Source of the DNA: Asterochloris sp. CNOR1
Taxonomy: Eukaryota > Chlorophyta > Trebouxiophyceae > Trebouxiales > Trebouxiaceae
Direction of reading: 5' to 3'
NCBI GenBank assembly: GCA_963969365.1
Contig: OZ017749.1
Coordinates: 1,054,001 to 1,118,000 of the forward strand
Length of the DNA stretch: 64,000 nucleotides
The notes beneath the pieces were generated by a model. The model was not told the origin of the DNA. It saw only the letters and a program-made list of their open reading frames with translations, and searched no databases. Of this stretch, positions 1-64,000 are shown one piece after another (within the stretch, counting starts at the first letter, position 1; every line of letters begins with the position of its first letter). Position numbers and translations under genes: made by a program.

Positions 1-7
1 TCTGCAG

Positions 8-3000
8 GTCGAAGGAAATTGAAGAGATGTTGCACAAGGCAAGGAGGGCGCGCCAGAACCGGAAGAAGAAAGGCAAGCCAGGTGCGGCAGCGGGCCTCCT
101 ATCTGCCTTCCTGATGTCTGAACCATTCTGACTACGCTCCAGAGTCCATACCCCATTTGTGAGAGGCTGTGGCTGCACTAGGGCATTGCTGCAGAGGGCT
201 GCGCCTTCCTGAGTCCAGTAAGCAAGAAATACCAGTTCAGGACAGCAAGTGCTCTCTAGGCGCCAGTAACTCCAAGCCGCGGAAGTGGGTTGTAGCAACA
301 GCCCGCTTCCTGACCATGTGCTCAGTGCCAGTCCCAAGCTGGGTCAGCCCATTCTATCTCACCGCTGTGTCACTGGAATGTGGTTTGTGCTGTGCTGTGG
401 CCCTGCAGATTCCAAGAGCTGCAGTTGTGCAGCAAGGTGATGCGTCACCCCAGCTGCCAGTGAGACCGATGTGTGCTGTGCCTGGCCATGCCAGTCCCTG
501 GAGCCCCAAGCTGCACCACCAAAGCAACAGCGCAGCAGTGCAACACCCAGGCTTCCCGCCAGCGAAAAGTATTTAGTGGTCTGCCCGGCTGTGCAGGCGT
601 CAGGAGTCTGAAGCTGCAGCACAGCGGCCTGGCCAGCGTCATTTCAACCACCCTCTGGGCTCTAGGCAGCGCTTGGCTGTGCAGGTGCCAGGGGTCAAGG
701 CCTGCAGCTGCAGTCCATGCATCAACCCAACCGCCGACGACCTATGCCTTCCCCGGCCCTGCAGGCGCCAGGAGCCCAGAGCTGCAGCACCAGAGCGAGC
801 TGGTGGCCGCCTTCCTTGAGAGGACGGCGCTCCTGGCCCGCCCGCTGTCAGAGCGACAGGCCAACGGCACCGTCAAGGCGCCCAGCAGCAATCCCGGCAA
901 GCCGCAGCCGCTGCCGCAGCGGCACCCCCCCTCACGCCTGCACAGTCCCACAGAGCCCGCGCAGCAGAACACTGTCCAGCAGGCTGCCCAGCCTGCCCAG
1001 GCACAGCAGCAGCCCTCGGAGCCCGCCGGGGGAGACGAGAATGGAGGCAGCCTGCCGGCGGAGCCTGTGCCGGCTGAGAGCCCCGAGGCACTGGCCAGGC
1101 AGAGGGCAGAGGAGTACAAGGCGCGGGGCAACGAGCACCACAAGGCGGCCCGCTGGGAGGCTGCCATTGCGGAGTACACCCTGGCCATCGAGACGTGTCC
1201 GGGGGTGGCTGCCTACCATGGCAACAGGCAAGCGGCTTGCATGGGGCTTGCACGTGGCATTGCCCCAATGTGAATGCCAGCATTGTTCCGGTGGGCTGCC
1301 ACGTGTCAGCTGACTGTAGCCAAAGGCCTGGGTTGCACAGAAGCTGCCAAAAGGGCAGCATAGGCAGCGCCCCTGTAGGCCATGCAGAGCCTAAAGAGGC
1401 TGAGCCATCATGCATTGTCTCGCCATCCCGCTCCCCCTCGACTGCGCCCATGTCCTGCAAGCACCAGCAGCAGCACCGACTCCTCATTGTCACAAAAGTG
1501 CATCTCTGCTGTCATGTCTGCCTGCTCCCTGCAGGGGCCGCAGCAGCGCTGATGTGCAAGCAGGACCACCTGGCAGCCCAGACTGCACTGTGCTGTCCTG
1601 TGCTGACCTCTGTCCATCTCCTGCAGGGCTGCCGCAGCTTTGATGTCAAAGCAGTACCGCTTGGCAGCCCAGGACAGTGCCCGCAGCACCCAGATAGATC
1701 CAGCCTTTGTACGAGGTTATGCTCGGGGCGCCAAGGCCATGCTGTGCATGGGGCAGCTGGACGAGGCCACTGCCCTGTACAGGCAGGCAATGGAGGCAGA
1801 CCCCGGGAACACAGGGCTGGCTGCTGAGAGCAGGGGAGTTGAGGTTGTCCGTCAGCATCTGGAAAGCTCGCGGCGCTGCCTGGCAGAAGGGTAGGCTCTG
1901 ACTCCCTGCAGCAACATTGCTGCATAGGGCAAGAGCTTGGCGTTGCCGGCCAGAAGGGTGCATGGCCTGCTGCAGCTGTTTGTGTGGGACATCAGCGTTG
2001 CTCGCACGCATGTTGGGGTGATGTCCACCTGTGTGGTGGGCCAGGAGAGCTGCGTGTGGCTGGTGGGCACACATTGAGCAATCTCATGAGGGAAACCATG
2101 CTGCCCCAAACTGCAATAGACTCCAGCATGGTGAAGGCCTTGACGCCTCTTAACCTGTAGAGACGCTTGCTAGGCGCATTTACGTGCAGCCAGTGGTTGG
2201 CAGGCCGTGTACTGCATCAGAGGCTGCTCAGATGCCCTCCAGTCAGGCTGAGCAGGCTCAGTGGTCACCAGCTACCTGTGCTGGCCCCTGACCCAGCTCT
2301 TGGCCAGCAACTCCCCTTTTCCCCCCTCCCCTGTCCGTGCAGGGACACCCGTCAGGCGCAGTGGCATGCTGACGTGGCCATCCGCGCAGCCAGCCCCCCC
2401 GTGGAGACCGCTGTCATGGCGCGCTGCGAGGCCCTGCTGGCGGGGGGGCGGGCAGCCGAGGCGCTGAGTGAGGTGCGCGGCCTGACCCTGGAGGGCAACC
2501 CCGCCGCCACCGGCGTGCTGCGGCTCAGGGCACGGGCGCTGTACCTGTCAGGTATGGTGGGCTGGCATCAGAGCCAAGCTGGGCACAATCAGTGCAACTC
2601 TGAATGAAGGTGTGCTCCTGCTGGCAGCATGGGCAAGGGGAAGATTCACAATATCATGAAATGCACCTGTGCAGCTCGGGACACCAGTTGCATGTGCGTG
2701 ACATGGGTCTGTGCTTCTGTGCAGGCAATATGGGCATGGCAGAGAAGGTGTACAAGGAGGTACTGCGGCAGGACCCTGACAGCGCGGCAAGCATGAAGAG
2801 CATCAAGCGCATACGCCTCATGCACACAGCCAAGGACGCCGGCAATGAGGCCTTCAAGGTGGGCAGCCTGCGGAGCAGGACCAGGTCACTGGGATTGCGC
2901 GGGTTCCTTGAAGCTGAAAAACAAGGGCACGTAACTGGTGCACACACTGCCAGGGAGGTCATCAAGTTAGGCAGCCGTGAGTAGAGCTTCAGCTCATTGG

Positions 3001-6000
3001 AAGGCATGAGCTCAGAGACAGAAGCCTCAAGGGCAAGCGGCACATTGCCAAGGCAAGAATACGCTCACAGAGATCAGCTCTGTGAGCATGGGCTGAGAGC
3101 AACGAACGGTACATGTGTACGGTGTCCACACCCTTGCTGGGTGAGCAAAGGTTCAGCACCATGGCTTTGCCAGGTGTCCTGACGCCAATTCAGGTCAACA
3201 GGGGGCTCTGCCTGCTGCATGCACGCAGACTGGGCAGAGGCAGCCTGCATGGGGCTGGCCGTTCACTGCACCGCACGCTGTGCGCCCCAATCTGGTCCCG
3301 CCCTGTGCGCTGCAGGCAGGCAAGCTTGAGGAGGCTGCACAGCACTACACCACTGCGCTGGAGGCAGACACCGACCTGAGGACCAGCTTTGTCGCCCAGT
3401 GTGCTTGCAACAGGTGACCTACCAGGAGACAAACTGAGCCTCCTGCGTACCAAGCAGCAGGCTGAGGTCCTGCACTGCATACCGGCTGACAACCCTGTCA
3501 GGTGCTAACTAGGCCGGCACGAAGCCATCATTGTGGCGGCACAAGCTTGGCTGCTTTGCACAGCACGCCAATGCTGCCAGGTTATGCAGTGGGCTGCATC
3601 CTGTGTCCCGTCACACAGGGTGCACGCCACCCAAAACAGCACCTGCGTACGGTGGCCATGCACCAGAAGCTGCATGTGACTCTGGTCGCAGCTTTCTGCT
3701 GGGCTTTTTGTGTTGTACAGTGAGGGGCACCCATGCACCCGCTGCTGCATGCAGCACCTTGCCCAGCGGGTGCCACCATGCTGCCCTCTGGTGCCTGCAG
3801 GGCAGCTGTGCACCTCAAGCTGCGCAACAACGACCAGGCCATGAAGGACGCTGACCTGGCCTGCGAGCTGGACAGCCACTATGCCAAGGCCTACCTGCGA
3901 AGGGCTGCCGCCCACACGGCCCTCGAGCAGTTTGAGGAGGCTGTGCGGGACTATGAGAAGGTGACAGCACTATGGCAGCTGAGGGCATGCATGAACGCCA
4001 GCTGCCCACATCCCCCTTCAGCAAACTACTGTGATTTGAGGAAGATGTGAAGGGCTAAGAGCAGGCCAGGTTGCCAGCATCCACGGCTCGTGGCTTGTGC
4101 GCACATGGCAGCCTTCAAGCAGTTTGACGATGCAGTACAGAGGTATGCAAAGGTGAGGCTGGTCACTGCTCAATAGTGTCTGCGCAGGGCAGCTGCGTGC
4201 ACTGGCAAGGAAACAGGTTGAGGAGGCCGACAGGGGCCATGAGAAGGTGAGGGGCTGGGCCAGATGGCCATCCTGTCTGACGGCAGGCGGGAACATGCGG
4301 CGTTGATAAGCTGCTGGCCTGCCTGCTACCCGGGGTTTGGGCTTGGAGCGGCCGCCTGTTGGTGCGCTGTCAGCAGTCATTCCCAGCAGCCATCTCAGTC
4401 TGCTCTTTGAAGCTGCACCCTGCATAGGGCAGGTGAGTCAGATGTCTCAGTGGAATGCTGCCCTCATTTCTTGAGCCTTCCTGCAGCAAAACAGCATTGA
4501 AGAGTGTGGTGCTTTTTCTGGAGCTGGTTGCCTCACATTGCAGTCCGCCTGGTGCACTGCAATCAGCTGGAGCCAGCATGATGCAGCCAGTTTCTCAGCT
4601 GCCTGTGGTACGAAGCTGCTTGGCCTGTCCGTTGCAGGTGAAGGAGGCCCCGCCTCACTGCTGCTAGTCCCCGAGCCCCCTGCCAAACTCGGTAGATCAC
4701 TTGCTTCACCTCACATCGTGCCTGATGCAGGTAAAGAAGCTGCAGCGTGCGCAACATGGCTGGTCATCAGTAGCTGCCTGTGGAGTGAGAGTACCCGCCC
4801 TAGCTGGTCGCATGTCTGCTGCAAGTGAAGGAGCCTGCGTGGAATTGCTGCCCAACCCAGCCTGGATGCAACCTGCTTGTTCTGACTGGCCTCATGCCTG
4901 ATACAGGTGAAGGAGCTGGAGCCTGAGACAGCCAACCTAAAGGAGATGCTGCGGGAGGCCAAGGTGGCCCTAAAGAAGAGCAAGCGCGTGGACTACTACA
5001 AGCTGCTGGAGATTGATTCAAATGCCAATGAGTTTGAGCTCAAGAGGGCATACAGGTGTGCTGTTGACATCTTGTGTGGCTCCTGCAGCACACAGTCGTG
5101 CTTAAGCAGGCGTACAGATGCACTACTTGCATCATGTGTGGCTCTTGCAGAAGACTGCAGGGGCAGGCCCTCTTCCTTTGCTACTTGTGGGTTTGCCTCA
5201 GCTGTGCGCCAGGCTTTGAACACGGCGTCTGCACAGACCTGGGCAGCAGCGTGTGCAATTAGCTGGCTGGCCTGCCCTCTTGCCTGACTGCTGCAGGAGG
5301 GCTGCTTTCCATCTTCCACTGGGTCAGGCAGCTGCGGGTGACAGAGAACCTGGCAAGCTCCGTTCCTGCCTGCTGCAGGAGGGCTGCTATCATATCCCAC
5401 CACAGCAAGGCAGCTGAGGGAGAGAGGAAGCTTAGGGTCTCCCAGCTGCTGCAGGAAGGATGCCCATGATTTGAATTCTGGCAGGGCAGCGGTGATTGAC
5501 AGGAAGCTAACAAGGTCCTTCCCTGCCTGCTGTAGAAAGGCTGCCCTGAGGTTTCATCCCGATAAGGCAGCCGAAGGGCAGAGGGAAGCCAACGAGAAGC
5601 AATTCAAGTTGGTTGGGGAGGCCAATGCGATCCTGTCTGATCCAGCCAAGCGCCAAAAATATGACGCGGGATGGAATGCGGAGGAGATTGCACAGGTGGG
5701 ATCCACTGCTGATGATTCAGGTGCTGTATGGACTGCCGATGACGTTGGACAGGTCAGCGCCCCCATGGTGCGCTGCTGGTTTAGGCGTTGAGTGAATGCT
5801 CCAGAGATCTGACACGTCAGCCTGCTGATGTAGTGCACTACTGGTCTTGGGTGCTGGCAGGTGGTCCATTCCTCAAGATGGTGCTTGCTGGAGGTGTTGG
5901 TGGGTAGGCCAGCCCTCAGTGTGTTGCTTGCTGAATTGCTGCTGCGTACAACTCAGCTGTTGGGTATATGGTGTGGTACACTTCTTGCTGAGGTGCTGCT

Positions 6001-11345: not shown

Positions 11346-13307
11346 AGCAATATGAGCAGAAGATGACCTTCACACCTTATGCAAATTGGATCATTCCAGG
11401 CCACCTCATGCTGGGCAGATATCCCTACATCGAGCCCAGCAGATGCCAGTGAGTTGCAGACAGCACCGGCACAAGTGCATCCCGCCCAGTGAATTGCAGA
11501 CCACACTGCCACGCCTGCATGTGCATCCCTGGTCACATCAACATCAGGTGCAGTGCCATGCAGGGCAAGGGCGAAGGCTGAAAAGCAGCTGGACATGATT
11601 CTCAGAGCAGGCATCACCACATTCATCTGCCTTCAGGTGAGATAGTACCCATACGCCGGTGTGCCTGCTCGTCATACCTGTTCAACATTTGGCAGGCCCA
11701 AGTCACACCACCTGCGCTGCCTGCGCGGCAACCGCCGGGTGCTTCTTGCACCAGGCACTCAGGGCCTGCAATGCGGAGGGAATGGCCTGGTGTGCCTGAT
11801 TATGCATCTGTCTGGCATTTCACAGACCTTGCTGGATCAGCTGCAGATGCCTGTGGCTTGCCAGCAAGATGCCAATCGTCTGCACCAGAACCTCCCTGTT
11901 CCAGCCTGCCCCTGGAAGGCTCTGTGTTGCCTGCCTGTCTATCAGCAAAGCACTTCTTTGCATGCAGCCTGCCAGCTTGAAGGGCCAGCCAGCCACACTC
12001 TGCAGTGGAATGCCTGCAGGAAGAGCTGCCCTCCCATGACGACATGAAAATCGGTGGCCACAATGGCTTCATGCCGTACAAGGCTGTGGCCCAAATGATG
12101 GCCGCCTCCCTGTCAGGCCCAGTAACGCAAGAGGTGTGCTCCTGTCCCCTGCCTGCACTCAGAGTGCACACGTATTGCCCATGCAGCAGCCAAACACATG
12201 GTTTGATGTAATGTGAGCCAAGTGAGACACCCAGCCAAGCTCTTTGTGCGTGCTCTCTGGGAGTTAGCCGCCAAGCCTGTGGTATTGTGCAGGAGCTTGA
12301 TGGCCTCAGAAATCCCCAGCTTGATAAGTTCCTTCCTCCAAAAAAGAAAGCCAACCCGCAGAGCACACGCCGCAACCTCAATTTTAGCTATGACCCCATT
12401 GTGGACCTCAACCTGCCAGACAAGGACCAGTGAGTGCTGCTGCATGGGCTGCATCATGCAGAGGCACCCCGGGGCATGGCAGAGGCAAGGTGCTCGCATC
12501 ATGCACCATGCTGCAGAGCAGTAATGTCTGGCACGGAGCAGGCAGCATTGCTGGACATCGTCTCACCCTCCCATTCTCAATGTCATCTGCCCTGCTGAAA
12601 CAGCACCGCCATTGGAGCAGCAGCACTTCAACAGGGGCTCACAGGCAGGCTCCCTGCATGATGCAGCCCAAGCAGCAGCACTCACTGGTCCTTGTCTGGC
12701 AGATTGAGGTCTACAATGTTGAGACTGCGGCAGGTGTATTCTGGGTTTGTGTACACAAATAGGGGCAGAGTGCTTTAGAGCATGCCCTCATCTGTGCAGG
12801 CTGCTGCGCTTTGAATGTAACAGCTTGAAAAGCAATCCCTCATTTGAGCAGCATGCTGGGGCTTGTCTACCGTGTGAGATGTCCTTGCAGAGCTGCAGCT
12901 CGTAGATAGGTGTTTCCTGGCCTGAGCGTGCAGTGAGGCCCTCCCTGACGTGAGCTTCTCCATGTTTTGTGCAGGATGCTGCGGCTTGTTGATGGGCTGA
13001 AGTCGCGCATTCTGGGAGGGGAGGTGGTCTACATGCACTGTTGGGGAGGGCGGGGGCGGGCAGGCACCATTGCCTCCTGCTTCCTTGCAGCCTGTTATGG
13101 CCTGTCAGCAGACGAGATCCTAGCTCGCATTCAGAGAGCATTTGACACTCGGCAGGATGGAGGTGAGAGCTTCAGCATGCAGCTATGCTCTGTCTTTGGC
13201 ATATCCTTCGCGAGGCAGTTGCTTGCCCGCCTGCAGGGCGCCAGTCTCCTGAGACACCTGCCCAGAAGGAGTTTGTCCGCAGTTTTGTTGACGAGCTGAA
13301 GCAGTGA
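11346..13307 (+). CDS. PTP/dual-specificity-type protein phosphatase, 5' end unresolved
   Basis: This is probably a cysteine-based protein phosphatase. Phase-consistent exons: 11346-11448, 11564-11636, 12020-12133, 12293-12429, 12975-13162, 13237-13307. The start region reads YANWIIPGHLMLGRYPYIEP, typical of a group of PTP-like proteins in algae and bacteria. Then come LDMILRAGITTFICLQ, HDDMKIGGHNGFMPYKAVAQ and GLRNPQLDKFLPPKKK. The catalytic P-loop is VVYMHCWGGRGRAGTIAS, i.e. HCx5R followed by an Ala where many PTPs have Ser/Thr. The C-terminus ends SPETPAQKEFVRSFVDELKQ. The aspartate in DPIVDLNLPD is a candidate general acid. The true start codon lies upstream and was not found. The exon ending at 12429 forms one arm of an inverted repeat. 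Confidence 0.83.
12397..12718. repeat. Inverted copy of an exon-intron junction in the phosphatase gene
   Basis: Arm 1 (12397-12461) covers the last about 33 nt of the exon, the donor CCA/GTGAGTG and the first about 32 nt of the intron. Arm 2 (12654-12718) in the same intron is its reverse complement with only a few mismatches: CTGCATGATGCAGCCC(A)AGCAGCAGCACTCACTGGTCCTTGTCTGGCAG. The loop is about 192 nt. In the pre-mRNA the two arms would pair and cover the 5' splice site. Confidence 0.9.
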
Positions 13308-20634: not shown

Positions 20635-20647
20635 CAGCATTATCAAC

Positions 20648-40470: not shown

Positions 40471-40514
40471 CCAAGATCGATTTGCTGCCAGAAGTAAGCC
40501 AATGTCAACGGTCA

Positions 40515-48004: not shown

Positions 48005-51000
48005 TTACACTGGCGGCTTGATTAAAGGTGGCGGGGCCCTCCTGTGAGGCTTGTACAGGCGGTAATTGAAGACCACATCGTCAGAACGGCGCCAGATGTA
48101 CTTCTTAACAGCAGACAGAGTGAAGTCAAAGTACACAGCCTGCAACACAGCAGGGAACACATGTGCAGCTGAACACATGCCAAAATCCAGGGTCCATGAG
48201 ACATCGAAGCCTACCTTGCCCTGACACAACAATTCAAGGCCAGCCTCGCTTTCTGGAATTGGTGGCTCCTGCGGCAGGGCCGACACATTTGAGCACTGCA
48301 GCTGGGAAGCAGCACCACTCCGCCAGCATTGACAGGAAACCTTTTCTGGCAACGAGGGGTGACCTGACGCACATTGCAGGCACTCATCAGACAATGTGGT
48401 GCCTACCTGATGGCCCTGCTGGCGTGTACTCCAGTACAATGGCACTGGTGTAAGGTGCACATCATGATCTGCCAACTTCTGCTTGCAATAGTCAGCGACC
48501 TTGCTGACCTCCATAATGCGTGGGGCATTCAGGCGGCTCTGAAGAAGAGCTGGGAGGTTGGAGTCCTGCGCACAGAGCTGGTCTCTCCCATATCGGCAAA
48601 ATGCTCTCACAGCTAACAGTATTGGTCAGTGCAGTGAGCAGCAGCCTGAGTTGAGCAGCAGCTGAAAGCATGAGCTCAAAGTTGTCAAGCCGTCAGACCG
48701 GCAGGGACACCTGGCAGGCAGGGATGCTCCAAGAGACTCAGCAGCCTGAAGTGTGCCTTTTGAACACCAGAGATGCGCTGCCCACCTCAGCAGCATGCAC
48801 AATTACGCTGCTTGCTGTGGCTCAGCAGGTATGGTGCCCTCAACCTTAGCTGGCTGCAGGGTGAAGCCATACACTGCCTCCTCTGTCAGGGCAGGCAGCA
48901 TGCCCCCCGTGAGCATGCCCTGAGTGCTCAGGCAGGCTGCAACCCACCTCAGCTGGTCGCAGGGTGAAACTGTACTTTGTCTGCTCTGTCTGTGCTGGCA
49001 GGGTGCCATGCTGCACTACGTCGGCCACCCACAGGGGAATCTGGATGTCCTCCTCCTCCCGACCACTGAACTCTGTGGCCAGCACCCGCCAGGGCTCCCC
49101 GTCCCAGGAGTGCGCAGGACTGGGGGCCTTCATGCGACACATGACCACCGGCGGGTGGGGGTTGTGCAGGAAGTCAAAGACACGGGGCACGCCATGGGGG
49201 GACGCCTTCGCCAGGGCACTGCTGCTGCAGAGTGACAGGGAAGCTGAGCACACTCAGCTTGCGTCAAAGCTTCCAGGAGGCAGCTGAGAATAGGCCGGAA
49301 GTCTCGGGTCTTATTGTTTGAGCACCTCGCCACCAAGCCGTGCAGCAAGTCAGAGACGTGGCGCATGCCGCAGGAAGCAGCTCATGGCTGGTGGGTCATT
49401 GAAAACAGCTGCAGCCATAGGCTCAGCATGTGTGCATGTGAGCGAGGCTGCAGCTCAAAATATGTGTGCAGCCATGCTGAGTGCAGGGCCATCGAGCTGC
49501 AGCCAGACAGGAGAGTCAGCTCATGTCAGGCCGGGAATATTCTTGAACTTGCAGCGGTTACGCTACTTTGACAAGGTGCAGCAGGAGGTCAAGGCACACG
49601 TCAGAGGCAGTCAGGGGATGGCTTGCAGGGCCTCCTCATGGCATCCCGCTTTGTCAGGCACTTGCTGCAGGAACAAGTGGCTGCAGGGCCAGGCCACCTT
49701 CTTGCCACCCTGGGGACTGCAAGCAAGCAGATGGTCTGCACAGGAAGCAGGTATGCCAGGCTCAAGCTACAGTGCACACCTGTGCAGGAGGAGCCCAAAG
49801 GCGACAATTCGGCAGTGCCTGGGCCCTAGTCATGGTGCACCACCATGACATGCACTGACCACCGCACTGGGGGATAGCCGCACTGGCAAGGGGCCAGGGC
49901 TGCAGGTGCAGCGCTGCCGCCCTCCGCAATGCCAGCAGCCTCATCCAGCTTCAGCGGCGCTGCAGGCGCAGGCAGTGCTGCTGAAGACAGGGGAGATGGA
50001 GCTCTGCCCCCTATGTCAGTGTGGGCCTTGGGCAGGCTGCCGTAGCCAGCTGCCTTGACATGTCAACGCGCACACCCGCAAAGAGGGAACGACTAGAGCT
50101 CTCTTCGTTTGGGAGGTGCGGTGCTGCCTGCCTCTGTGCTGTTCACAGCCTCAGTCAGCGTCACCTGGTCCTGCCCATAAGCTTTCGAGGCGCACAGGGA
50201 CACCGAGGCAATGCTTGCAGTTCACCTCGCTCTGGGAGGTTCGTTGCTCCCAGCCTCTGCAGCGCCGGCAGCCTCAGCCAGCCTGAGTCGATCCTGGTAG
50301 GCTGACAGCCACTCCTTGAACAGGCCACGCAGCACCATGACCCCAAAGTTGAGCTTCTGCTCCGGCAAGCAGCTGCACCGGGGCCATCAGGAGTGAGCAG
50401 GGGCCGGAGCAAGCCGTCCCCTGAACAATCATGCAGCAGGCAGCACTATGCACATGCCGCAGCCTGCAAGGAGGAAGTGTCTGCAGCAAGATCATGCGCA
50501 GCAAGCAAGGGGCTTCGTGCAAGAGCACCAGCACGCAAGGGGCAAGCAAGCTGCAGCAAAACTTTGTGCAGCACACAGCGGCCAGGGCTCAGCAAACATG
50601 GCAAGTAGCAGCCTGCAACGTTTGCAATTTGCATGCAGCTGGCCAGAGCTTCACTGCGCGGGCCAATGCCTCACTCTGGCATACACAACTCCCGAGCATA
50701 GGCCTCCGCCTGGAATGCTGTCTGGGGCTCCAGGTGGATCTCCAAGCTGCCCAACTTGGTGTCATAGGAGAACCAGCTGAGCACGCTGGCGGGTTTGAAC
50801 AGGTCGCGCTCCTTCTGCTTGAAGTCCTCCTGCAGGGCAAGCAGCGTAGCTGGCAGCGTGAGACAAACATCACAGGGTCATCAGCATCAGGCTGTCCTCA
50901 CAGCCGTTTCCCTCAGCTAGTGGAAACGCCCTCCTTTTGCCTGATATAGCTCTGCAGACACCGGGCAGCACACGCAATGTGAGAGTGAACAGCAGCGGAG

Positions 51001-54000
51001 TAGCAGTCAGAAGGTTCAGTGGGAGCTCCTACAAATTACAGTAGGAGGGGGGCAGCAGCAAGCAGAGGGAGCCAAATGGAGCAGAAGCAACATTGGGAAC
51101 CAGCCTGTGTGAATTAGCAGGCCCCAGACCCCTCCTGGCACCTGGCAGAGCTGGCCTCAGCATGACCCTACCAATTGCCTTCACCCAGCAGACACGCAGC
51201 AGATGTGGCAGCCACTGCTCTGCAGATCGAGTACTGGATGATTGAAGCTGAATGGCCAGCCTGTGCCAGAGGAGCCCTCCAATTGCCAGCACCCCAGGCT
51301 GCTCATATAGTCCTGCAGGCTTCCACCCTGTGCCAATCCGGCAGTCTTAAGGTGCCCAGACGGGCTTTTGTTTGTTCTGTGCTAATGTGGCATTCTCAAG
51401 GTGCCCTAACTAAGTGCCCCGTACCGCCTGCATCTGGCATGGGATGCTGGCTGCTGTGCTGCACCTCCCCCACCCTGCACCTCACAGCCTGCACAGCCCT
51501 GCAGGGCTCACCACAATGCCAAAGTCGCGCTCCAGAGTGCCCTTGAGGATATCCCACAGCTCCACCCGGCCGACCGCGTCCTGTGCCAGAACGTAGCGTC
51601 GATCCGTCAGGGCTGCGCTGCACACCAGTGGCGGGATGCCGGCTGTGGCAGCGCTCGGCTGGTCCTGCTGCGGCTGCAGACCTGCAGGGACGACATGCAT
51701 TGGTTGCTGGAAAGGGTCAGCAGCTTGTATCGACGCCTCAGCGCAAGGTGATCCTGCTGCGGTTGCAGCTCTGCACCACCCCAGGCATGCTGATGGCTGA
51801 CAGGATAAGCAGCTTCTTGTTGAATGCAGCACACAAAATGTTCCTGTTGCAAGGGCTGTCCTGTACAGGCCTGATGCCGTCCGAAACATGCATCACTTTC
51901 AGACATCTCAGCTGCCAACACAGCTTGGCCCATTTCAGTGGTGAGAGGTGGCCCCTGAAGGTATGGCTGGCTATGCAAGACAACTTTGCAGATTGAGCTT
52001 GATCTTGGCTGGACATGAGGTGCTCTGCGGGATTGAGGGGTGGCACCTGGGCCGGGCCCACAACCACCAGGCGGTGCTGCGGCTCCTGCAGTGGGGGCTT
52101 ATGTATGATCACAAGGGCTCACCAGCCTCAGCTGCCTGCCTGGAGCGCGCTGCTGGGACTGTCGGCGCGAGGAAGGCCAGCCCTGGTTGCTCGGTGTGAG
52201 AAGTCGCCTGCAGGAGCCAGCCACCCGGCACGTCAGAGGCAACCAGTGGGTGCTGCTGCGTTTGCATGCTCACCCTGCCCGCTCCATGCCTGGCAGCACA
52301 GCAGCAGGGGTACCGCTGGGCCTGGCAAAGCTGTGGCACAGCTGGCAGTACAGCAGCAGGGCTGCAAAGGCTTGGCAGCTACCTGGCAGCGCGGCAGCAG
52401 GACTCCCACCCGCCACCCAACTGCAGTAGGAGCATGTTCGTGGTACCAGCCCACTGGACAAAGCCTGGTCCAGCTTAACTGCCTCTCAAGTCCTTATGAA
52501 GCACACCAAGGATGTCTGGAAGCCCAGCAGTAAGGCAATGCAAGCCTGCTTGCCTGCTGCCCCTCTGACAAGGGTTGCCTGCCCTCCTCCAGGGAGCCTC
52601 TTGCAGGCGGGGACGGGTGAGCTGGCAATGGCAGGGCAGCGCGCGTGGACCAGGCCTGCACTGTGGCTGCCGTGGTCCCTGCCCAGATGTAGTCACGCTG
52701 CTCATCCCAGGCCAGGCTGGTGATGGGCTGCTGCTCCACAGCCAGGAGCTCGCTGGTCCGGCTGGCGATCTGTGTCCTGCACGTGGGCCAGCCCTTGCCC
52801 CAAGCGCGTTTGCATGCTGGGGAATCGGAAGCAGGGGCCACTTGCAGTCCAGGCACTGGAGAGCTGTGCAAAGCAAACATGATGGCTGAAGGCACCAAAT
52901 AGTAAGCCAGGGTGGGCCAGCTGACAACGGTCCCTCAGAAACATTGGTGCCGCCGTGACCCACTGCCAAGCAGGCGGCAGGTCGCAAAAGGCGGCGGCAG
53001 GTGCACCCGCACAAAGTGCTGCGAAGTTCCCACTGCCACGACAGCACTGGGAGTCCACAGGTGTCCCTAGCAGCTGTCACGCCAGCCTGCACGCCCCGTA
53101 CAAGCACCTGTCTCACGCGTATCTGCAATTCTTGTGAGCAGGCTGCTGGCGCCTCGTCTTGAGCAACAACGGCCGCATTACCTGTACAGGCACTTGTCCC
53201 GCCCACCGCTGCAGACGACGCTGAAATCGTGGTTGGCAGCCAGGGCCCACACGCTGTCAGTGTGGGCGGCCACAGTCTGGATGCAGCGCTGCAGGCCCAG
53301 GTCCCACAGCTTGACAGTCCAGTCTGAGGAGGCTGTCAGTGCCTGGCGCCCGTCCTGGCTGAGCAGCACGCCCCTGCAGCAGCAGCGTCCAGGAGCTTGC
53401 CATTTGCTCTCTGAGTGCCGCCCTGTCACATGGCAAGGAGGGGGCCTGGTCCCAGGCAGGCACCCTGGTCATGTCTGTGGCACTGCTGACCTAAGGGTCA
53501 CTGCAGGGCAGTCCAGTCCCTCGATGAGCAGGCAAGACACACCGTATATTGTCGGAGTGTCCTCTCAGCTCTCCTAGCGTTACCGAGGCCCGCCAGTCCA
53601 GCAACTGCAGGCATACACAGGTGCCCTTTTTCATCATGACACAAAGCAGCTTGACAAACAGCAGCCAGCACATGCCAGCATGGCCTAGTCTCCCACCCTG
53701 CCATCCCAGCAAACCCCGCATGCAGACAAGACATGTGCCATTCAGGCTCCCCTTTGCGGCGCTTTGTGTATGTGAGAGGCACTAGTTGCAACTCAAGATC
53801 AACTTGCCTGGACCATGTTGGCTGTGGAGCCAGCGGCACACAGTACCCCATCGTCGCTGATGGCCACTGCATAGATGCTCTCCTTCCTGGGCTGCCATCT
53901 CAATGTTGGCTGGACAGGCTCATTCAAACCAGCCTGCAGGAGGTTGGGGAGCTGCTCAACTGGCAGCCAGCGCATTGTGCTGGTCTCAAACCGGCTGCAC

Positions 54001-55488
54001 GCAGCCCATTGTGCTGCCGAGGTCTTTGCATGTACATGTCATCAGCTGCCACAGGCTGTGCAAACTATAAAGCACCACCTGGGGCTGTCAGCTGCCCTCA
54101 CACCTGCCAACATGTTTCAACGTCCCTAGGCTGCCTCTGCACACTGGATGGGGTCTTTGGAATCTACACAGGAAGGCCCAGAGGAGGCAACAAGCGTGAC
54201 AACAATACCATGTTCTGCGCTTCCCAGCTGACGGCACCTGCCAGAGGCAAAGCATTCTGCTCAAGCCCAATGGCAACACCAGCCTCAGCCTGCAATGGCC
54301 GTACGCTAAAGTAGTGCGCTGAAGTCGGGCTGCCTGCTGACTCCAGCCTTTTGTGCGTATTCCAGTTGTCAGCACCTGCCACAGGCACAGCATGGTGTAA
54401 TTTGAGCCCAGCTAACCACAGCCTCAGCCAGCACAGGCCATTGACCAGATCAGCCCATGGCTGCGCATCAATTCGATGCTCACCCGGGGCTGCCTGCTGA
54501 CCTCCAGCCCCTTGTGCACATCCCAGAAGCCCAGCTCGCCCCGCAGGCCTGCTGTGACCACCATGTAGTTGTGCCGTGCCGCAGCCAGGCAGGTGATGTA
54601 GTCGTCATGCAGGTTTGAGTGCTGGAGACGGCACTTGCGTGGCGCTGCATCAGGCAGCACGGCTTCTCAGACACCGCCACTGTTCTGCCGACGTGAGAAC
54701 TCCTTCAGAGCACTTTGGCATGCCAGACATTGAGCTTAGAAGCAACACAGATGAAGAGACTTGTTGATGGCGCAACGACATTGGTGGTTGCACACTGAAA
54801 GCGAGGGCCTGTGCACAGACGGTGACAGCCTCAGGGCCTCCAACGGGCAGCATTCCCTCGCAGGCAGCCCTGTCGAGCTGCCTGCTATGCACTGCAGATG
54901 TCAGGCTCTGTTGTAGTTGCACTGGTGGTAGTAATGAGGCAGGGTGCAGAGCAGGGCCCTGGTCGATCACTTGCCTCCCATCACGAGTGCTGAACTCTTA
55001 TCACCAGCAGGCGGTGCCAATACAAGAGCCTGCAAAGCGCACCTTTGTCCCGCAGCCACGCTTTGCAGCTCTGGTCCCGGCTGCATGTTATGAGGACATC
55101 TTGCAGCAGGGCCACTCCTGTGACCCAGTCTGTGTGACCTTCATAGCTGTGTGACCAGACCGGCGATTTGCCCGTCACGTCCCATCTGCAGGGCAGCGAG
55201 GGCTCATCAGCACAGATACAATCAGTGGCAGATGGCTTGCAAGGGCTGCAGCCACCTCCTACCGCTTGACTGTGGCATCTCGGGAGGCTGTGAAGAGCTG
55301 TCCTGTGCCGCTTGAAAGAGCAACAGCATTGATGCCAGCTCCATGCTGCAGAACAGCCACAGCAGTCGTACATTAGCAACACACAAAGCCTGATAACAAG
55401 ACAGGATCTGGGCAAGCACCTGGGAGCTTTCAGTTCTTGGGAATAATACACTCAGCTTGCGCTCCTTCCGCTTGGGAGCATCGTACAT
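48005..55488 (-). CDS. WDR48: WDR48/UAF1 WD40-repeat protein
   Basis: WDR48 (UAF1) is a propeller that binds and activates USP1/USP12/USP46-type deubiquitinases. The start at 55488 gives MYDAPKRKERKLSVLFPRTE. The next exon is HGAGINAVALSSGTGQLFTA then SRDATVKRWDVTGKSPVWSH, and GHTDWVTGVALLQDVLITCS. WD repeats continue: HDDYITCLAAARHNYMVVTA-like text near 54600, LTASSDWTVKLWDLGLQRCI near 53310, ACSGGRDK-like text near 53190, EQQPITSLAWDEQRDYIWAG near 52720 and RYVLAQDAVGRVELWDILKG near 51560. The C-terminal half has the WDR48 SUMO-like region: EPWRVLATEFSGREEEDIQI, PLWVADVVQHG, APRIMEVSKVADYCKQKLAD, LELLCQGKV and SAVKKYIWRRSDDVVFNYRL, stopping at 48005. Several junctions between 49300 and 52500 were not resolved. 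Confidence 0.92.
48840..49010 (-). repeat. Echo of a WDR48 exon end in the next intron
   Basis: On the minus strand the real exon reads CTGCCAGCACAGACAGAGCA...TTCACCCTGCGACCAGCTGAG/GTGGGT (peptide LPAQTEQTKYSFTLRPAE), ending near 48949. About 100 nt downstream the intron has CTGCCCTGCCCTGACAGAGG...TTCACCCTGCAGCCAGCTAAG/GTTGAG (LPALTEEAVYGFTLQPAK). Both end with a GT donor. Confidence 0.82.
54320..54530 (-). repeat. Second exon-edge echo in WDR48
   Basis: The coding stretch 54486-54527 (GGGCTGCCTGCTGACCTCCA...TTGTGCACATCCCAG, read on the plus strand) has a close copy at 54327-54365 (GGGCTGCCTGCTGACTCCAG...TTGTGCGTATTCCAG). The copy sits in the intron downstream of the exon on the coding (minus) strand, about 160 nt away. 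Confidence 0.75.
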
Positions 55489-58622: not shown

Positions 58623-61330
58623 ATGGCTGTCAGGGCCATGAGCCTTCCAGCGCCACTGCTTCTTCTGGTTGTCTTCCGGTGCCTACATGCACTGACTCCT
58701 GGCGTCCTGGGTATGTACTCATGACAAATTACAAGCTTGATATGTGATCAGGGCAGCCTCACCATGTGCTGGCCCATCCTGCAGACAGTCCCAGTGAAGC
58801 CAATGAACCAAACCCACGCTACATCATTGCAGTTGATACGACAGGTATGCATGTTGGGCAAATTCTCAGTCTTCATGCCACAAGCTCAGTAGATATGATC
58901 AGCTGATGGCCGCAGACCGCACTGTGCTTGCTGCAGGACTCACAGCTCAGCCGCCAATTGGTGGCAAGACAATGAGGATGGCTGATGTTGACAGCAGGGC
59001 TTTCGACTGCCACATTCCTTATCTGCAGAATAGAAGCAAGGATGCAGAACCACCTAATCAGGGCTTCAAGGTCTGCAATAGGCAGTTCCACAGCCGGCAG
59101 AGCAGCAAAACGCTGACCTCAGCTGACCTATGTCAAGGGCCTCCATTCTGCAGGGGCTTCAGCAGATGTTTCAGCAGAAGAAGACGCCGACGCAGCTGCT
59201 CGATACATTGAGTGAGCCTCCACTGCTAGGCCATGCTGCACGTCTCTGAGCAAGGCTGAGACTCTTTTGGCATCCACAGCTGCTGCAAAGCAGTGCTGCA
59301 GAGCCACACAAGCAAACTTGGCACTGCAGGCAGCTGCTGCCAGAGTGGTGCGCATGTGTGGGCCTGGTGTCGTTTTGGACCTTGTCCTGCAATGGAACTG
59401 CCTGTTTCAAGTTCGAGCGGTCATGTGCAAGCGTGCTTTTTGAAGCTGCTCTTCCTGCATCGTGCAGGTGGCCTCTGCCTGTATCGCATCGAGGAGTGGT
59501 GGACATTCGAGCTGTGCTACAAGGAGCATGTGCGCCAATTCCACAAGGAGCAGAACCAGGTTGTGTCTGAGTACTCTCTGGGCACATTCAAGGAGGAGGA
59601 GGTGAATCAGGACGAGATCAAGGTGAACTTGGCAAGGTTGGCACCAAAGGCAGTGCACTGGGTGCTGCGTTACAACGCCCAACTCCTGTCCCAGTTCCAG
59701 TGACAAGGGCACTGCTGCCTGCTCTTTGTGGTCCTGCTGAGTCCATGTCAGGTGTGATCAAGCAGGTATTCAGGCAGTGAGCTTGTTGCCTGCTGGGTCT
59801 CTGAAATGCCCCTCCTGCAATAGCAAGGCGTTGAAGTTTTCTGCCTGATGTGTACCTCCCAGATGCTTGCTGACCACGTAGATACAGCATTTGTTTGCAG
59901 AGTGGCGACAGCACTGGCACGCGTGCCAGTCGCTACATCAGCCAGATGTACACTGGTGGGGAGCGCTGCGAGATTGACGGCTCAGAGGCAGGCCGACAAC
60001 GCTCCACTGAGGTGCCTGCCGCATGTCTGGCCCTGTATGCAAACGGCTGTTGCACTGCAAGCACATCATTCAATCTGCTCGTCCTGCAGTCAAGGCTGTC
60101 TGTTGCCTCAATGGCACAGACGACCTGGATGCTGCACCCAGGGCGCTTCATGCACATCCTCAAGACCTGCAGACAGAGCTGATTGCTCCTCGTGCAGTGG
60201 CATCAGCGACTGCTTGCTGCACTGAGGCCTGCATGCAACACTGGCCCGACGCCAGCAGTCAAGGCAGAGTGCTGCAATAGCCACAGGCTGCTGTCCCTGC
60301 AGTCTCGCTGGTTCTGCTGCATCTGCAGAGATGGCTGGCCCAAAGCAATCTGCATGCCACTTCTCTATGCCTGTACTATGAGACTGTTCTGCAAACAGGA
60401 AGGGCCCCCTTTGCAGGTGCGCTTCATGTGTTCAGAGGATGCCAAGGAGTCCATCACAGCCATCATGGTGAGCAGTGCAGCTAGGTATATGCGCTGAGCA
60501 GCAGGACGGCGTTGGGACTGCCTGGCAGGTGCAGCATACCAGGTGCAGGCGTACTAGGTGCAGGCAGGTTGAGAGGCAGGGCCATGGGGACCGGGCTGTG
60601 TCAGCAACTTACTTGAAAGCATGCTTGCTGCAGGAACCCTCAACGTGCAACTACTTGTTGACAGTAACAACACCGCGGCTGTGCAAGCACCCAGAATTCA
60701 GAATACAAGCAGGGCCAGTGGGATTCATTGTTTGCCGAGCTGCTCCTGAAGGTGCGTGCTAGGCTGGTTTCTCTTCGGTGGACCTGGATTGGCACAGTGA
60801 TTGTCTTGCATGGCGACTATTGTGCAGAGCAGGTCCAAGGAGCACAGCGAATTACATACTGACAGTGGCTTGTGTGTTGACAGCAGCTTGCTTTGCTGAG
60901 TTCCTGGTGTGCACACAGCAGAGGCACACCTTCCCCACATGGCGCATGGTGTGCAGTAAATTGATTGCTGTCTCACACGGCGTATGGTGTGCAGGTGAGG
61001 CCCACGAGCAACCAGTGGTGAAGCAGCAAGCGGGCCTGGAGGATCATGATGTTGTTCAGCCCCCCAAGGTGAGCGCAGCGCCTTGTAAAGGGCGCAGCTG
61101 GTAAGAGCTTGAGGACCTAGGCCTTGGGCAGCTGAAGCCCTGCTGCCTCTGGAGCTTGCATTCAAGAACTAAATGCGTTCAGCCAGAAGCTAGCGTGGGG
61201 CTCATGCAGCAGGCCGGTGGCACTACCAACACCTTCAGAACGCCTGTGCCAATGGAGAGGGCCAGCTTGCATCCTGGATTCTGCTGAAGAGCTGGAATGT
61301 GAATCTCCTTGACTGCAGGATGAGCTATGA
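58623..61330 (+). CDS. OS9: OS-9 family ER lectin (MRH domain) with KDEL tail
   Basis: OS-9/Yos9 reads trimmed glycans on misfolded ER proteins and passes them to the HRD1 ligase for ERAD. Exon 1 (58623-58710) is a signal peptide, MAVRAMSLPAPLLLLVVFRC. Exon 2 (58785-58844) gives DSPSEANEPNPRYIIAVDTT. Exon 3 starts at 58937. The MRH domain follows: CLYRIEEWWTFELCYKEHVR with the double Trp and downstream Gln of glycan-binding OS-9 proteins, then SRYISQMYTGGERCEIDGSE, VRFMCSEDAKESITAI and EPSTCNYLLTVTTPRLCKHP with the expected Glu and Tyr. The penultimate exon ends QPPK at 61068, phase 0. The exon at 61319 starts GATGAGCTATGA, so the mature end reads KDEL and stop. If that intron were retained the protein would instead end GRSW. 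The exact exon 3-4 boundaries (59000-59230) are uncertain. Confidence 0.94.
60930..60998 (+). repeat. Tandem copies of the acceptor before the penultimate OS-9 exon
   Basis: The acceptor CACACGGCGTATGGTGTGCAG at 60994 is preceded about 44 nt upstream by CACATGGCGCATGGTGTGCAG. Both end in GTGTGCAG, giving two near-identical candidate 3' splice sites. Only the downstream one continues the frame to the KDEL exon. Confidence 0.8.
61319..61330 (+). other. Final OS-9 micro-coding exon encoding DEL-stop
   Basis: After the acceptor GACTGCAG the first twelve bases are GATGAGCTATGA. Joined in phase 0 to the AAG that ends the previous exon they encode K-DEL-stop, the canonical ER retrieval signal. The coding part is only 9 nt plus stop, too short for ordinary gene finding. 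Confidence 0.85.
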
Positions 61331-61887
61331 GGCACAAGGGACACTGTTCTATCATGAGACGCAGATGATGGGATGTGACATGTTGTGAGGGCGGTGATCG
61401 AGCGAGGACGAGTGGCCCACACACTGTGCAGCAAGAGGGTCTTCACTTTGTGCCAGGGCAAAATCGGTACAGCACAGCTCCCTGTGCATGACATGCAGAC
61501 AGCGGCCTGTTTGCCTGTCTGCAGCAAAGCGACCGACACAGTGTGCTGCACCCCCTTTTCTCCCGTCCTGGGTCGCGTGGTTGCACCCAGTTAGCTCAAG
61601 GCTTTGGCATGAACCTCTGCAGTGTCTTTGCATGAAGCAGCAACTCCTGTACGTAACTTCTGGGAAACGGCTCCCTTGGGCGCAGTAGTATTTATTACAT
61701 CGGGGCCAGACTATAGATTGGACAAGCCACTGTCAATGCGCAGTGGCAGTCTGCCTCTTTCATATGTCAAAAATAGTGCTGTTCTCTGACATGACAGACT
61801 CTGGAAGGAGTAAGGTTGGACATGGACACAGGCGGGAGGCATGTACTAAACATGACATCAATGCATGCCTGACGGGCTGACCACCAC
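61331..61887. other. Convergent intergenic region
   Basis: This lies between the OS-9 stop and the stop of the right-edge gene. Open frames on both strands here look like chance and carry no recognizable domain. The stretch 61680-61860 is AT-rich, as expected for 3' UTR sequence. Confidence 0.55.
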
Positions 61888-64000
61888 TCAGGAACCACAG
61901 AAGCAGGTGGTTAGCCAGTTCCGCTTCCTCTGCTGCTGGGTTTCTTGCGCAGCAGGCTGCTGGGGATTGCCAGGCTTGCTGCGCTGGCTGGTTGTCCTGA
62001 TCCTACCCATGGCCAGGCCCTCTGCATCGCTCTCTTCAGCATGGGAGGTCTCAGAGGGCGTGATGGATACCCCTCCATACTTTTGCAACATTACCTCCTC
62101 AGCCAGGCGAAGGGACCGCTGAGTGGTGATTTTGCTGGGCTCTGGCATCTCTGCATCATGAAAGGTGCTCTTGCTCCTGCTCCGCTGCACCTGCAGCCAC
62201 ACAGGCAAGCTTGTCATCGGGCAGGGGCTTGAAAGTGGCTGTGAGACCAATCGGTAGAAGTTGCTGCAGGGCAGGCAAGCTTCTGGCAAGGAACGTCACA
62301 TGACAATCTGCAGGCTCCACATGGCATTTGTTGATGGATGACATATGCCAGTATTGCCAGACATTGGCAGGACAGTTGGCATGTAGTTGGCAAGACCTCA
62401 TAGGGACCACTGCTGATGCCCACAAATGCACCTGTCCAGCAGCGAGGCCTCCGTGCGCGGCAATCCCCACTGGACTCTCTCCCTGTTCGCCACCCAGTTC
62501 CTCAACGTTCTGCAGCTGCATGTGCTGCCCCCGCAGCTTGACAGCATCGGCGCCTGTGGATGCATCGATACTGGTTCGCAGCTCCTCCTCCAAAGAGCGG
62601 GTGGGGCCGCGCTTCATCATGGCTGCCAGGCCTACTGTGACCTGCAAGTGGAGCACACACTGGTGCTGCAGACTGCACACCATCCTCCTACAGCAGGCAG
62701 ACATATCATCCCTGTGAGCTGCTCTATCATCTCAGCAGCCTGGCCTGCCTTTGTGCCCTGGTGGGGAGAATTTGTGAACAGAAATGATGTTCCATGGCAG
62801 CCAGCTGAAACAGCCCCCTGCAGGTGGAGGCAGCCTAAACAACATCTCAGGCACCACACGCGGCTGACACCTCCGAAGGTGGACGCAGCCTGCACCTGGT
62901 CTTCCAGCCCTTCATGACTTGCTTATCGGTCAGGCCATGCCTGGGAGGCTGTTGAGCTCATACAGGAGCCCAGCCCACCCTGACCATGCACAGGGAGCCC
63001 ACTTGACTGAGGCTGAGGCAATCTGAAAGAGACAACAGCAGCTGCCGGACCACTTCGTCATCGAGTGGGTACCAGCAGCACATCAAGGAAGCCCACCTGG
63101 CTGAGGCTGATCCCCCTAGAGATGGAGGCAGCCTGCACCTTATCGTCCAGCCCCGCATACTTGGCCCGATAGGGCGCAGAGGGGCTGGCTTCGCAGCCTG
63201 CTCCTGGCCCGCTAGCCCCAGCCTCCATACCTGCAGTGCCATCAGTCACGGCAGGCCCGGCACTGTCAGATACCATGCCATGAGGCTCTGCAGCCGCCTG
63301 GGCAGCTGCTGCCTGCTGAGCTCTTTCTCTCTGCTGGCGCTCTGAAGCAGGGAGGGACAGCAACCTCAGCAGTGGGTGGACCCTGTGCAGCTGTTCAAGC
63401 CTGGCTGAGAGTGTCAAGCGGGGGAGCAGACTGGGCCAGCTGCTAAGTCAGGAAATTCCAAGCATGTCACGTGTCTAGGGATGCCGGCAGGGGCACCCAG
63501 CAGGATCAAGGACATCCCTCCCCACACCTGTGAAGCATTCGGCAGCAGCTTCCTGTCAGAAAGGCACACCTGCGACAGAGGCGGCCTTGCTGGTGTGAAT
63601 AGGCTTGAGCCTGGCCAGGTCACTGTGCAGGTCTCCTGCGGCCGCAAAGGCTGCTGCTGCCGCCGCCTCGGAACTCTCCTGCGGGAGGCGTGGAGGGGCA
63701 GCTGGCTCTGCCTGACCTGCAGGCAGACACAGCGCCACCCTCTTGGCCACTTTGCAATGATGGCTGTCCTGCACAGGCGCTCGTCACATACAGTGAACCA
63801 TTCACTTCAAGTGTCAGGGAGGCCTCCTTCTGTGACGCTGCTAGTGAGCAGCTGCATGGGCAGCTTGGTGACGCCACCATATGCAGGGAATGCCAGCTTA
63901 TGGGAGAGGTGCAGACTGTGCTGCAGTTTGCCTGCAGCATCCAGTGGTGCAGCATCGCCATGACTTGAAGTTTGAGTACAAGCCTGCAGTGTGCTGCCAG
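61888..64000 (-). CDS. Unidentified multi-exon gene, 3' part only
   Basis: I do not recognise the family. The C-terminal exon ends RKRNWLTTCFCGS at 61888 and is preceded by TTQRSLRLAEEVMLQKYGGV and acidic Ser/Glu text. Upstream on the minus strand are MKRGPTRSLEEELRTSIDAS with QLQNVEELGGEQGESPVGIA (near 62550), YRAKYAGLDDKVQAASISRG (near 63130) and LSARLEQLHRVHPLLRLLSL with an Ala/Gln-rich helix (near 63380). An Ala-rich piece PQESSEAAAAAAFAAAGDLH lies near 63650, and a possible exon AYGGVTKLPMQLLTSSVTEG near 63880. The mix of charged helices suggests a soluble, partly coiled-coil protein. The 5' end is off the window, and exon boundaries are tentative. Confidence 0.5.
62820..63160 (-). repeat. 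Echo copies of an exon edge in the right-edge gene
   Basis: The likely coding text near 63117-63160 (plus-strand GATGGAGGCAGCCTGCACCT...GTCCAGCCCC) recurs at about 62877-62912 (GGTGGACGCAGCCTGCACCT...TTCCAGCCCT), and its start again near 62824 (GGTGGAGGCAGCCT). The peptides are DDKVQAASISRG and EDQVQAASTFGG. A weaker relative lies near 63000-63060. Which copies are true exons is not settled. Confidence 0.6.

Follow-up and report, generated by a model that had tools for sequence, protein, structure and literature searches.

Introner elements, dispersed families whose members are alike between genes, add intron sequence throughout a genome. Within single genes, internal duplication reportedly alters exon-intron structure (work attributed to Rogers 1989, Gao and Lynch 2009 and Hellsten 2011), and in the Rogers model duplications of exon sequence only, carrying AGGT, are said to give new introns. 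In the potato RdRp gene a single young event made a direct tandem copy which holds the 3' portion of an intron and the 5' portion of the exon after it, splice signals included; the gene thereby acquired an intron and an extra piece of exon (Ma, Lan and Niu 2016, PMC4974935). Tandem exon duplications and mutually exclusive exons have been sought in the form of entire exons for which there is evidence of expression (Ivanov and Pervouchine 2022, PMC9013439). Breaks induced in cells of mouse and human can give rise to local head-to-tail duplications, tens of bp in size, through the Schimmel-type fill-in by CST/Pol alpha (PMC8355091, which also cites Vaughn and Bennetzen 2014 on small tandem duplications in rice).

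In Asterochloris sp. CNOR1, decayed copies of exon edges, here called echoes, were identified in the neighbouring introns; the effect is real and common in the sampled genome. Like the introner elements, the echoes add intron sequence across the genome, but they resemble the exon of their own gene, as measured on own and other introns. The Rogers model likewise involves a local duplication within a gene which reshapes its exon-intron structure; however, it duplicates the exon only, whereas most of the matches found here cross an existing splice site. The potato duplication shares with the echoes the direct, boundary-crossing copy with splice signals, but it is a single young event, while here many old events are found per stretch, in which mostly the exon is apparently unchanged and the intron longer. 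Tandemly duplicated or mutually exclusive exons also place exon-like sequence in an adjacent intron; these are sought as entire exons, whereas the echoes are partial, frame-broken and decayed. Repair by CST/Pol alpha yields the same head-to-tail arrangement, though its duplications measure tens of bp, and the units here, known from the sequence, are mostly longer. No report of genome-wide exon-edge echoes was found in the literature searched, in which subscription papers were thinly covered.

Exon-edge copies in the window

For the window, which is the whole stretch of 64,000 nucleotides analysed, an earlier note had named 13 cases in which an exon edge with its splice site recurs in the adjacent intron. 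For each interval, pieces of 80 nt were compared with up to 600 nt on each side in direct and inverted orientation, using 300 random stretches from other loci as the null and a Bonferroni correction across pieces. Nine cases were significant, namely four intervals in the TPR/J gene, BBS2, two intervals in WDR48, the right-edge gene and the phosphatase. The other four missed significance in this test (BTB-SPRY, 15405-15654, corrected p 0.18; ASPM, 32595-33035, 0.062; EDR2-like, 44118-44342, 0.12; OS-9, 60930-60998, 0.12). The significant cases comprise the following features.

445-524, + strand: TPR/J echo of the acceptor edge at 722-795 (exon from 765), 54/80 identical
3884-3985, + strand: TPR/J exon copy, donor edge of the TPR exon ending at 3960
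4075-4170 and 4171-4270, + strand: two TPR/J echoes of the 3884-3985 donor edge, both with AAG|GTGAG
4612-4705, 4706-4799 and 4800-4883, + strand: three TPR/J echoes of the acceptor edge of the exon starting at 4907
4884-4965, + strand: TPR/J exon copy of the 4612-4883 unit, from copy-by-copy alignment
5286-5369, 5370-5443 and 5444-5525, + strand: three tandem TPR/J echoes of the J-domain exon acceptor edge, all bearing CTGCTGCAG
5525-5608, + strand: TPR/J J-domain exon copy of the 5286-5525 unit; exon start at 5536 after CTGTAG, encoding KAALRFHPDK
12397-12463, + strand: phosphatase exon end and donor, source of the inverted copy
12652-12718, - strand: phosphatase inverted copy of 12397-12463 in the same intron, 63/67 identical to the reverse complement
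26262-26326, - strand: BBS2 intron copy of exon sequence 26150-26214, 48/65 identical, corrected p 5.2e-5
48826-48898, - strand: WDR48 echo of the donor edge at 48929-49001, 53/73 identical, corrected p 4.3e-6
54360-54439 and 54222-54300, - strand: WDR48 tandem copies in the intron, 59/82 identical, corrected p 4.8e-6
62860-62921, - strand: right-edge gene echo of exon sequence 63103-63163 adjoining the donor, 47/62 identical, corrected p 3.3e-6

Within the TPR/J gene, three arrays were examined by copy-by-copy alignment. The echoes at 5286-5525 have a mean column identity of 72% to the exon copy (interval 5293-5535, corrected p 3.7e-5), and mean column identities of 64% and 71% were found for those at 4612-4883 (interval 4619-4940, 0.00029) and 4075-4270 (interval 4084-4247, 0.00087); for the interval 165-792 the corrected p was 0.0045. 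The best single match in 5293-5535 is one intron copy against another, and by the alignment the array at 5286-5608 contains the exon copy as well. In WDR48 the best single match of 54320-54530 also lies between two intron copies, and the donor edge of the intron 53934-54483 is echoed too (p 4.6e-6). The inverted case that had been described for the phosphatase (12397-12718) is sound, with a corrected p of 3.6e-13, but its class is rare: in 304 kb, inverted tiles with z>6 occur in 4 places versus 110 merged direct repeats, and 18 inverted versus 344 direct tiles of 11660 exceed z>5. Other repeats in the window are a 153-bp repeat in ASPM and a 34-bp repeat at 56378.

Own-intron excess in the sampled genome

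The sample consisted of the window and a further 28 stretches of ten kb each from this genome, in total 344 kb or about 0.6% of the genome, with 706 introns predicted by a purpose-built gene finder; the gene models are ab initio, made without transcripts, unverified and wrong in places. Each exon edge was compared with its own intron at p<=0.01, and the reverse complement of the own intron, mid-exon pieces and other introns served as controls. Matches to the own intron were found for 89 of 1169 edges, where about 12 are expected by chance, in comparison to 15/1169 for the reverse complement and 7/488 for mid-exon pieces. Both kinds of edge contribute: 42 of 586 acceptor edges matched (reverse complement 10/586, mid-exon pieces 3/250), as did 47 of 583 donor edges (reverse complement 5/583, mid-exon pieces 4/238). 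Beyond the window, in a 304-kb set, 24/387 acceptor and 26/385 donor edges matched. The own intron scored well above other introns in the 344 kb, and the proposal that a genome-wide process leaves decayed exon-edge copies in introns thus withstood the comparison on which it had been staked. Single boundary-crossing duplications are already known; here their trace is measurable at about one in 13 exon edges at p<=0.01.

A scan independent of gene models (at least 36/50 matches at a distance of 25-700) identified local direct repeats at 90 places in the 344 kb, and none in the null, in which 280 kb were compared with another locus. None of the 90 places is intergenic, and 0 of 652 intergenic tiles exceed z>5; since the density of intron-intron repeats predicts only about 3 repeats in the 24.9 kb of intergenic sequence, this zero is uninformative.

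Geometry of the copies and placement of the probable duplications

The copies are contiguous across the splice site, with 52 of 68 edge matches reaching 12 nt or more beyond the junction to either side. Echoes lie closer to the junction than uniform placement gives (KS p 2.2e-6); the median gap of the edge matches is 61 nt, with 21/68 at 30 nt or less, and for the best repeat per intron at p<0.001 the copies are separated by 30 nt or less in 16 of 22 pairs. Among the causes suggested earlier, replication or repair slippage agrees with this geometry, which, like the multi-copy arrays, is that of DNA duplicated locally in tandem, but its restriction to exon edges is unneeded.

The echoes are probably the remnants of old local tandem duplications, made visible by selection on the exon copy, and this ordinary process explains most of them. 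Tandem duplications of mostly about 100-300 bp, arising by break repair or slippage, would produce the echo pairs. If a unit spanning a splice site was duplicated and the outermost site was spliced, the mRNA would remain unchanged, and the inner copy, part exon and part intron with a splice site of its own, would be trapped in the lengthened intron and decay unconstrained. After duplications inside an intron both copies would decay and the pair would sooner become invisible, whereas at an exon edge selection at the protein level would hold one copy and keep the pair visible for longer. The majority of these events would be old.

It is unlikely that splice junctions instead attract duplication, through for instance co-transcriptional R-loops, exon chromatin or the repeated CTGCAG acceptor motif, and that introns are thereby filled from their borders. 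Such targeting would agree with the edge rate, which at donors is 0.129 versus 0.055-0.080 in the intron interiors of the 344 kb, and with the steep drop into the exon (12.9, 6.0, 3.3 and 1.1% with the start of the donor window at -60, -90, -120 and -150), from which it follows that partial and not whole exons were copied. However, such repeats also occur in the interiors, about half as often as at the edges, intron-intron repeats account for 23 of the 90 places, and the copies run well past the junction in both directions without ending there. A similar contrast was obtained with evenly placed old duplications and exons that evolve slowly, in simulations with parameters hand-tuned to the same data they are compared with: donor edge and interior rates were 0.168 and 0.068 uncapped, and 0.114 and 0.070 with the exonic extent capped at 80 nt. 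The splice-linked or edge-aimed process which the earlier note had also considered is thus unnecessary. With one stopped setting (unit 120, stop 0.35, cap 80) the contrast was as small as 0.075 versus 0.061. For exons of 120 nt or longer, on which the comparison is fairer, the observed donor rate (17.6% of 245) exceeds the 11.4% of the capped simulation; uncapped simulations reach 16.6-19.6%, but with too slow a fall-off into the exon. Donor edges may carry an excess of as much as about 1.5-fold. Junction-only or junction-biased duplication likewise raises the simulated edge rate, but the junction-biased simulation at a constant rate gave an edge identity of 0.84 against the observed 0.73.

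The edge prominence is attributed mainly to selection, which holds the exon copy fixed. That a frozen exon copy alone produces a twofold edge excess was rejected; constant-rate simulations, one of them with a far too high duplication rate, gave a ratio of about 1, and the simulated ratio of edge to interior rises only when recent duplications are few. Repeats that pair an exon or a junction with an intron stand to intron-intron repeats as 45:23 in the data, 22:10 in a stopped simulation and 30:37 at a constant rate. An ancestral genome-wide burst of edge-aimed duplication, which made a sizeable part of the introns out of the adjoining exons before it mostly ceased, is unlikely; introns would in that case be partly fossil exon borders.

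Decay of the copies

The copies, probably old local tandem duplications, have decayed irrespective of the reading frame. Mismatches are spread nearly evenly over the codon positions (25, 28 and 30%), 196 of 210 gaps are not multiples of three, the distances between copies modulo 3 are even (23/19/26), and 12 stops occur in 1078 aligned codons. It is therefore very improbable that the echoes represent alternative or mutually exclusive exons which arose by duplication and are absent from the gene models; they fail the whole-exon, frame-kept pattern of tandem exon duplications. Their splice sites appear usable from the sequence, and the gene finder called 4193-4246 and 5455-5535 exons, but the Pfam TPR and DnaJ matches are continuous once the echoes are skipped, with DnaJ matched at full length (1-63/63) on joining 5055 to 5536.

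An identity peak at the splice site was not seen across the edge matches, and the splice dinucleotide is retained in 31 of 53 echoes, where 27.8 are expected from identity; by both measures no selection against splice sites inside echoes was seen. The exon part is more identical than the intron part in 9 of 13 spanning pairs, a difference in the predicted direction but not significant (Wilcoxon p 0.27), and over all edge matches the two parts show 72.6% and 70.2%. Transitions and transversions number 538:716 in the copies versus 825:1946 in chance alignments, a bias which marks true descent.

The identity spectrum is old. Only 3 of 68 intron-involving repeats reach 90% (at least 45/50), in comparison to 36/67 in a constant-rate simulation. 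One of 62 edge matches has an identity of at least 0.9, and repeats of at least 50 nt with at least 90% identity occur at 6 places in the 344 kb, 3 coding and 3 intron-involving. This scarcity would also be expected if the copies had diverged at birth through error-prone copying and had not been exact and then aged, but that is a remote prospect, as the graded spectrum, the transition bias and plain old age in simulation account for it, and a C-to-T excess is absent. A signature of repeat-induced point mutation was not seen in the per-base rates (C>T 0.117, G>A 0.103, T>C 0.127, A>G 0.117). Chance, base composition, common splice motifs or errors in the gene models may account for individual weak cases, given the four non-significant intervals and the partly wrong gene models, but are refuted for the whole by the reverse-complement, mid-exon and other-intron controls and the empty null of the scan.

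With old tandem duplication as the source, the echoes provide a direct handle on the origin of intron sequence and on intron lengthening without mobile elements, and the fixed exon copy can be used as a dated reference for decay. For annotation they call for caution, as they bear plausible splice sites and are called exons by an ab initio finder. The high density of the copies and the small number of young ones are still surprising; the shortage of young copies, if true genome-wide, would suggest that duplication rate or selection strength has changed in the lineage. Matches of an intron end to the neighbouring exon on its opposite side, which would be expected of an intron that is itself a duplicated exon segment, occur in single short introns; one of these, L016:2757-2871, whose end matches the upstream exon, could be a case of the Rogers model.

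Exon borders and their own introns

The genome of Asterochloris sp. CNOR1 comprises 56.4 Mb in 21 contigs with a GC content of 58.3%. For Asterochloris, PMC6652019 gives 56 Mb, a GC content of 56-62% over 98% of the genome and about 9 introns per gene. The window and 28 ten-kb stretches at random sites, picked from 100 drawn, were combined into a 344-kb set, on which a purpose-built hidden Markov gene finder was trained. It converged on the acceptor CTGCAG|G and the donor AG|GTGAG. The CTGCAG acceptor consensus is a palindrome and is unusually strong, with T, G and C at -5, -4 and -3 in 93, 93 and 98% in all sampled loci. In the five predicted window proteins scanned, Pfam domains were identified for TPR with DnaJ, dual-specificity phosphatase, WD40 with DUF3337, PRKCSH (OS-9-like) and BBS2. 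The gene finder is imperfect: BBS2 was fused with the BTB-SPRY gene, and two echoes (decayed copies of an exon edge inside the adjacent intron) of the TPR/J gene were called as exons (4193-4246 and 5455-5535). One sampled locus, L001, lies on a small contig (G000:C19, 43319 bases) which, unlike the remainder, carries a 713-aa kinase reading frame without introns and may be foreign, organellar or a contaminant.

Exon edges of 60 nt, minus the 3 nt adjoining the splice site, were aligned to their own intron, with 200 stretches of equal length from introns of other loci as the null. The claim of the earlier note that exon edges have copies in the adjacent intron was borne out, since 42/586 acceptor and 47/583 donor edges matched at p<=0.01, compared to 10/586 and 5/583 when the own intron was reverse-complemented and to 3/250 and 4/238 for mid-exon pieces. 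A smaller data set gave a similar picture, and loci outside the window in an earlier 304-kb set contained 24/387 and 26/385 edge matches. Among the 13 individual cases named in that note, nine were significant after correction for the pieces tested, while four were not. A scan independent of gene models (ungapped diagonals, 50-nt windows, distance 25-700) identified, after merging, 90 places across the 344 kb that had 36 or more matches: 22 exon-exon, 23 intron-intron and 45 pairing an exon or junction with an intron. When 280 kb were compared to another locus on the same diagonals, zero matches were obtained.

When 60-nt windows were compared to their own intron (share at p<=0.01), the donor side gave 1.1, 3.3, 6.0, 12.9, 12.2 and 4.8% at -150, -120, -90, -60, -30 and 0, and 5.9-8.0% further inside the intron. 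The acceptor side gave 4.1, 11.3, 9.7, 3.2, 2.0 and 2.6% at -60, -30, 0, +30, +60 and +90, and 5.5-7.0% inside the intron; inverted matches amounted to 0.4-2.2%. Among exons 120 nt or longer, shares were 17.6% at the donor edge (n=245), 12.6-15.8% at the acceptor edge (n=253) and 4.9-7.9% inside the intron. The profile and the long-exon rates thus show that the repeat trace extends beyond exon edges, yet is about twice as frequent there.

Decay and age of the copies

At a Gumbel p<5e-3, 68/1169 edges had matches, at a median distance of 171 nt; 52/68 spanned the junction by at least 12 nt on both sides, and just 21/68 had a gap of <=30 nt. Echoes lie closer to the junction than under uniform placement (KS p 2.2e-6). 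When the strongest repeat of each intron was sought in its own right, 22/603 introns reached p<0.001 (null rate 0.0006), with exon sequence involved in 19/22 and a gap of <=30 nt in 16/22. The copies are dead as coding sequence, because mismatches are flat over codon positions (25, 28 and 30%), 196/210 gaps are not multiples of three, 12 stops occur in 1078 codons and distances modulo three are distributed 23/19/26. The transition bias is stronger in edge matches (538:716 transitions to transversions) than in chance alignments (825:1946), and no C-to-T excess was seen among echo substitutions. Splice dinucleotides were retained like any other base (31/53 echoes, expected 27.8). Spacing, junction spanning, frame loss, substitution pattern and splice-site survival together fit DNA-level tandem duplication over short distances, after which the copies decayed neutrally.

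The 68 scan places involving introns fall into classes of 45-50 (3), 42-44 (6), 40-41 (7), 38-39 (19) and 36-37 (33) matches per 50, and the top class holds 3/68 as opposed to 36/67 in a constant-rate simulation. Exon identity of edge matches was 73%, and 1/62 reached 0.9, versus 22/68 in the constant-rate run. Young copies are present but few:

L026 (sampled locus), 2600-2672: intron versus exon, 49/50
L022 and L026 (sampled loci): intron-intron copies
Phosphatase gene of the window: inverted copy, 63/67

This scarcity would be accounted for by a burst long ago, or by mildly deleterious duplications having become fixed when the population was smaller.

Placement of the duplications

In the simulations, duplications were spread evenly across exon edges and introns, those crossing a junction were retained within the intron, exons evolved slowly, and detection was as in the real data. 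At a constant rate, donor edge and interior were alike (0.078/0.069, 0.064/0.059 and 0.073/0.075), and edge matches had 80-84% exon identity. When duplication was halted at a point about 0.3 substitutions per site before the present, the edge rates rose to 0.166-0.196 versus 0.06-0.08 inside, with an identity of 0.73-0.75. With the exonic extent additionally capped at 80 nt, the edge rates were 0.114 (donor) and 0.113 (acceptor), falling to 0.061 and 0.039 at the next step into the exon, with an interior rate of about 0.07; the corresponding values in the real data are similar (0.129 and 0.097, 0.060 and 0.032, and 0.055-0.080). The settings of the stopped runs were hand-tuned to the same data, and others fitted worse. 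The observed ratio of exon- or junction-intron to intron-intron repeats (45:23) matches the stopped run (22:10), not the constant-rate run (30:37). Because the stopped, evenly placed simulation reproduces both edge rates and repeat ratio, age together with a frozen exon copy can, in the model, give the edge effect without aiming.

A modest bias of duplication toward exon edges has some room beside this: at long exons the donor edge is about 1.5-fold above the capped run (17.6% versus 11.4%), and a simulated bias of duplication toward junctions likewise gives a higher edge rate, although evenly placed, stopped duplications already yield an edge excess. The splice-linked or edge-aimed process proposed earlier is therefore not required, since age plus the frozen exon copy suffices in simulation.

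Known systems and individual loci

Tandem duplication across a splice boundary is already known. Published work describes one young duplication across an intron-exon boundary in potato (PMC4974935), a catalogue of duplicated exons located in animal introns (PMC9013439) and break repair as a known origin of small tandem duplications (PMC8355091). The present copies differ from these in being partial, frame-broken, old and spread over many exon edges of a single genome.

The TPR/J gene is the clearest case. It has three distinct arrays, of which two repeat an acceptor edge in three echoes apiece and the third repeats a donor edge in two; every copy has its own splice site. At 5286-5536, the echoes retain CTGCAG|G acceptors, nearer the consensus than the CTGTAG|A demanded by the J-domain reading frame; a possible role is that of an alternative 3' splice site. 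In the 4612-4965 array, the copies read CAG|GTGAAG or near it, so that an acceptor adjoins donor-like sequence, the arrangement of recursive splice sites.

For the phosphatase gene, the inverted copy is real: 12397-12463 and 12652-12718 agree at 63/67 positions, including the exon end and donor. Inverted repeats are rare: in 304 kb, 12 tiles exceeded a z of 6, at 4 sites in all, versus 110 direct repeats after merging. This copy is a separate event outside the tandem process to which it had been assigned. The stretch 12340-12730 has a predicted fold of -205.8 kcal/mol versus -141.2 in shuffles (z -13.1), with the 5' splice site inside the predicted hairpin stem, which could hinder or regulate splicing.

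Coding repeats were also identified, namely, in the ASPM-like gene (35442-35743), a tandem repeat of 153 bp whose copies are 87% alike, and an array in locus L008 (8243-9056) with spacings mostly multiples of 75 nt. The exon-intron pair of highest likeness (L026 2331-2752) has 49/50 matches to exon sequence at a distance of 140, and its intron has further repeats. In L016, a 115-nt intron (2757-2871), whose end matches the upstream exon, is a candidate for gain by exon duplication.
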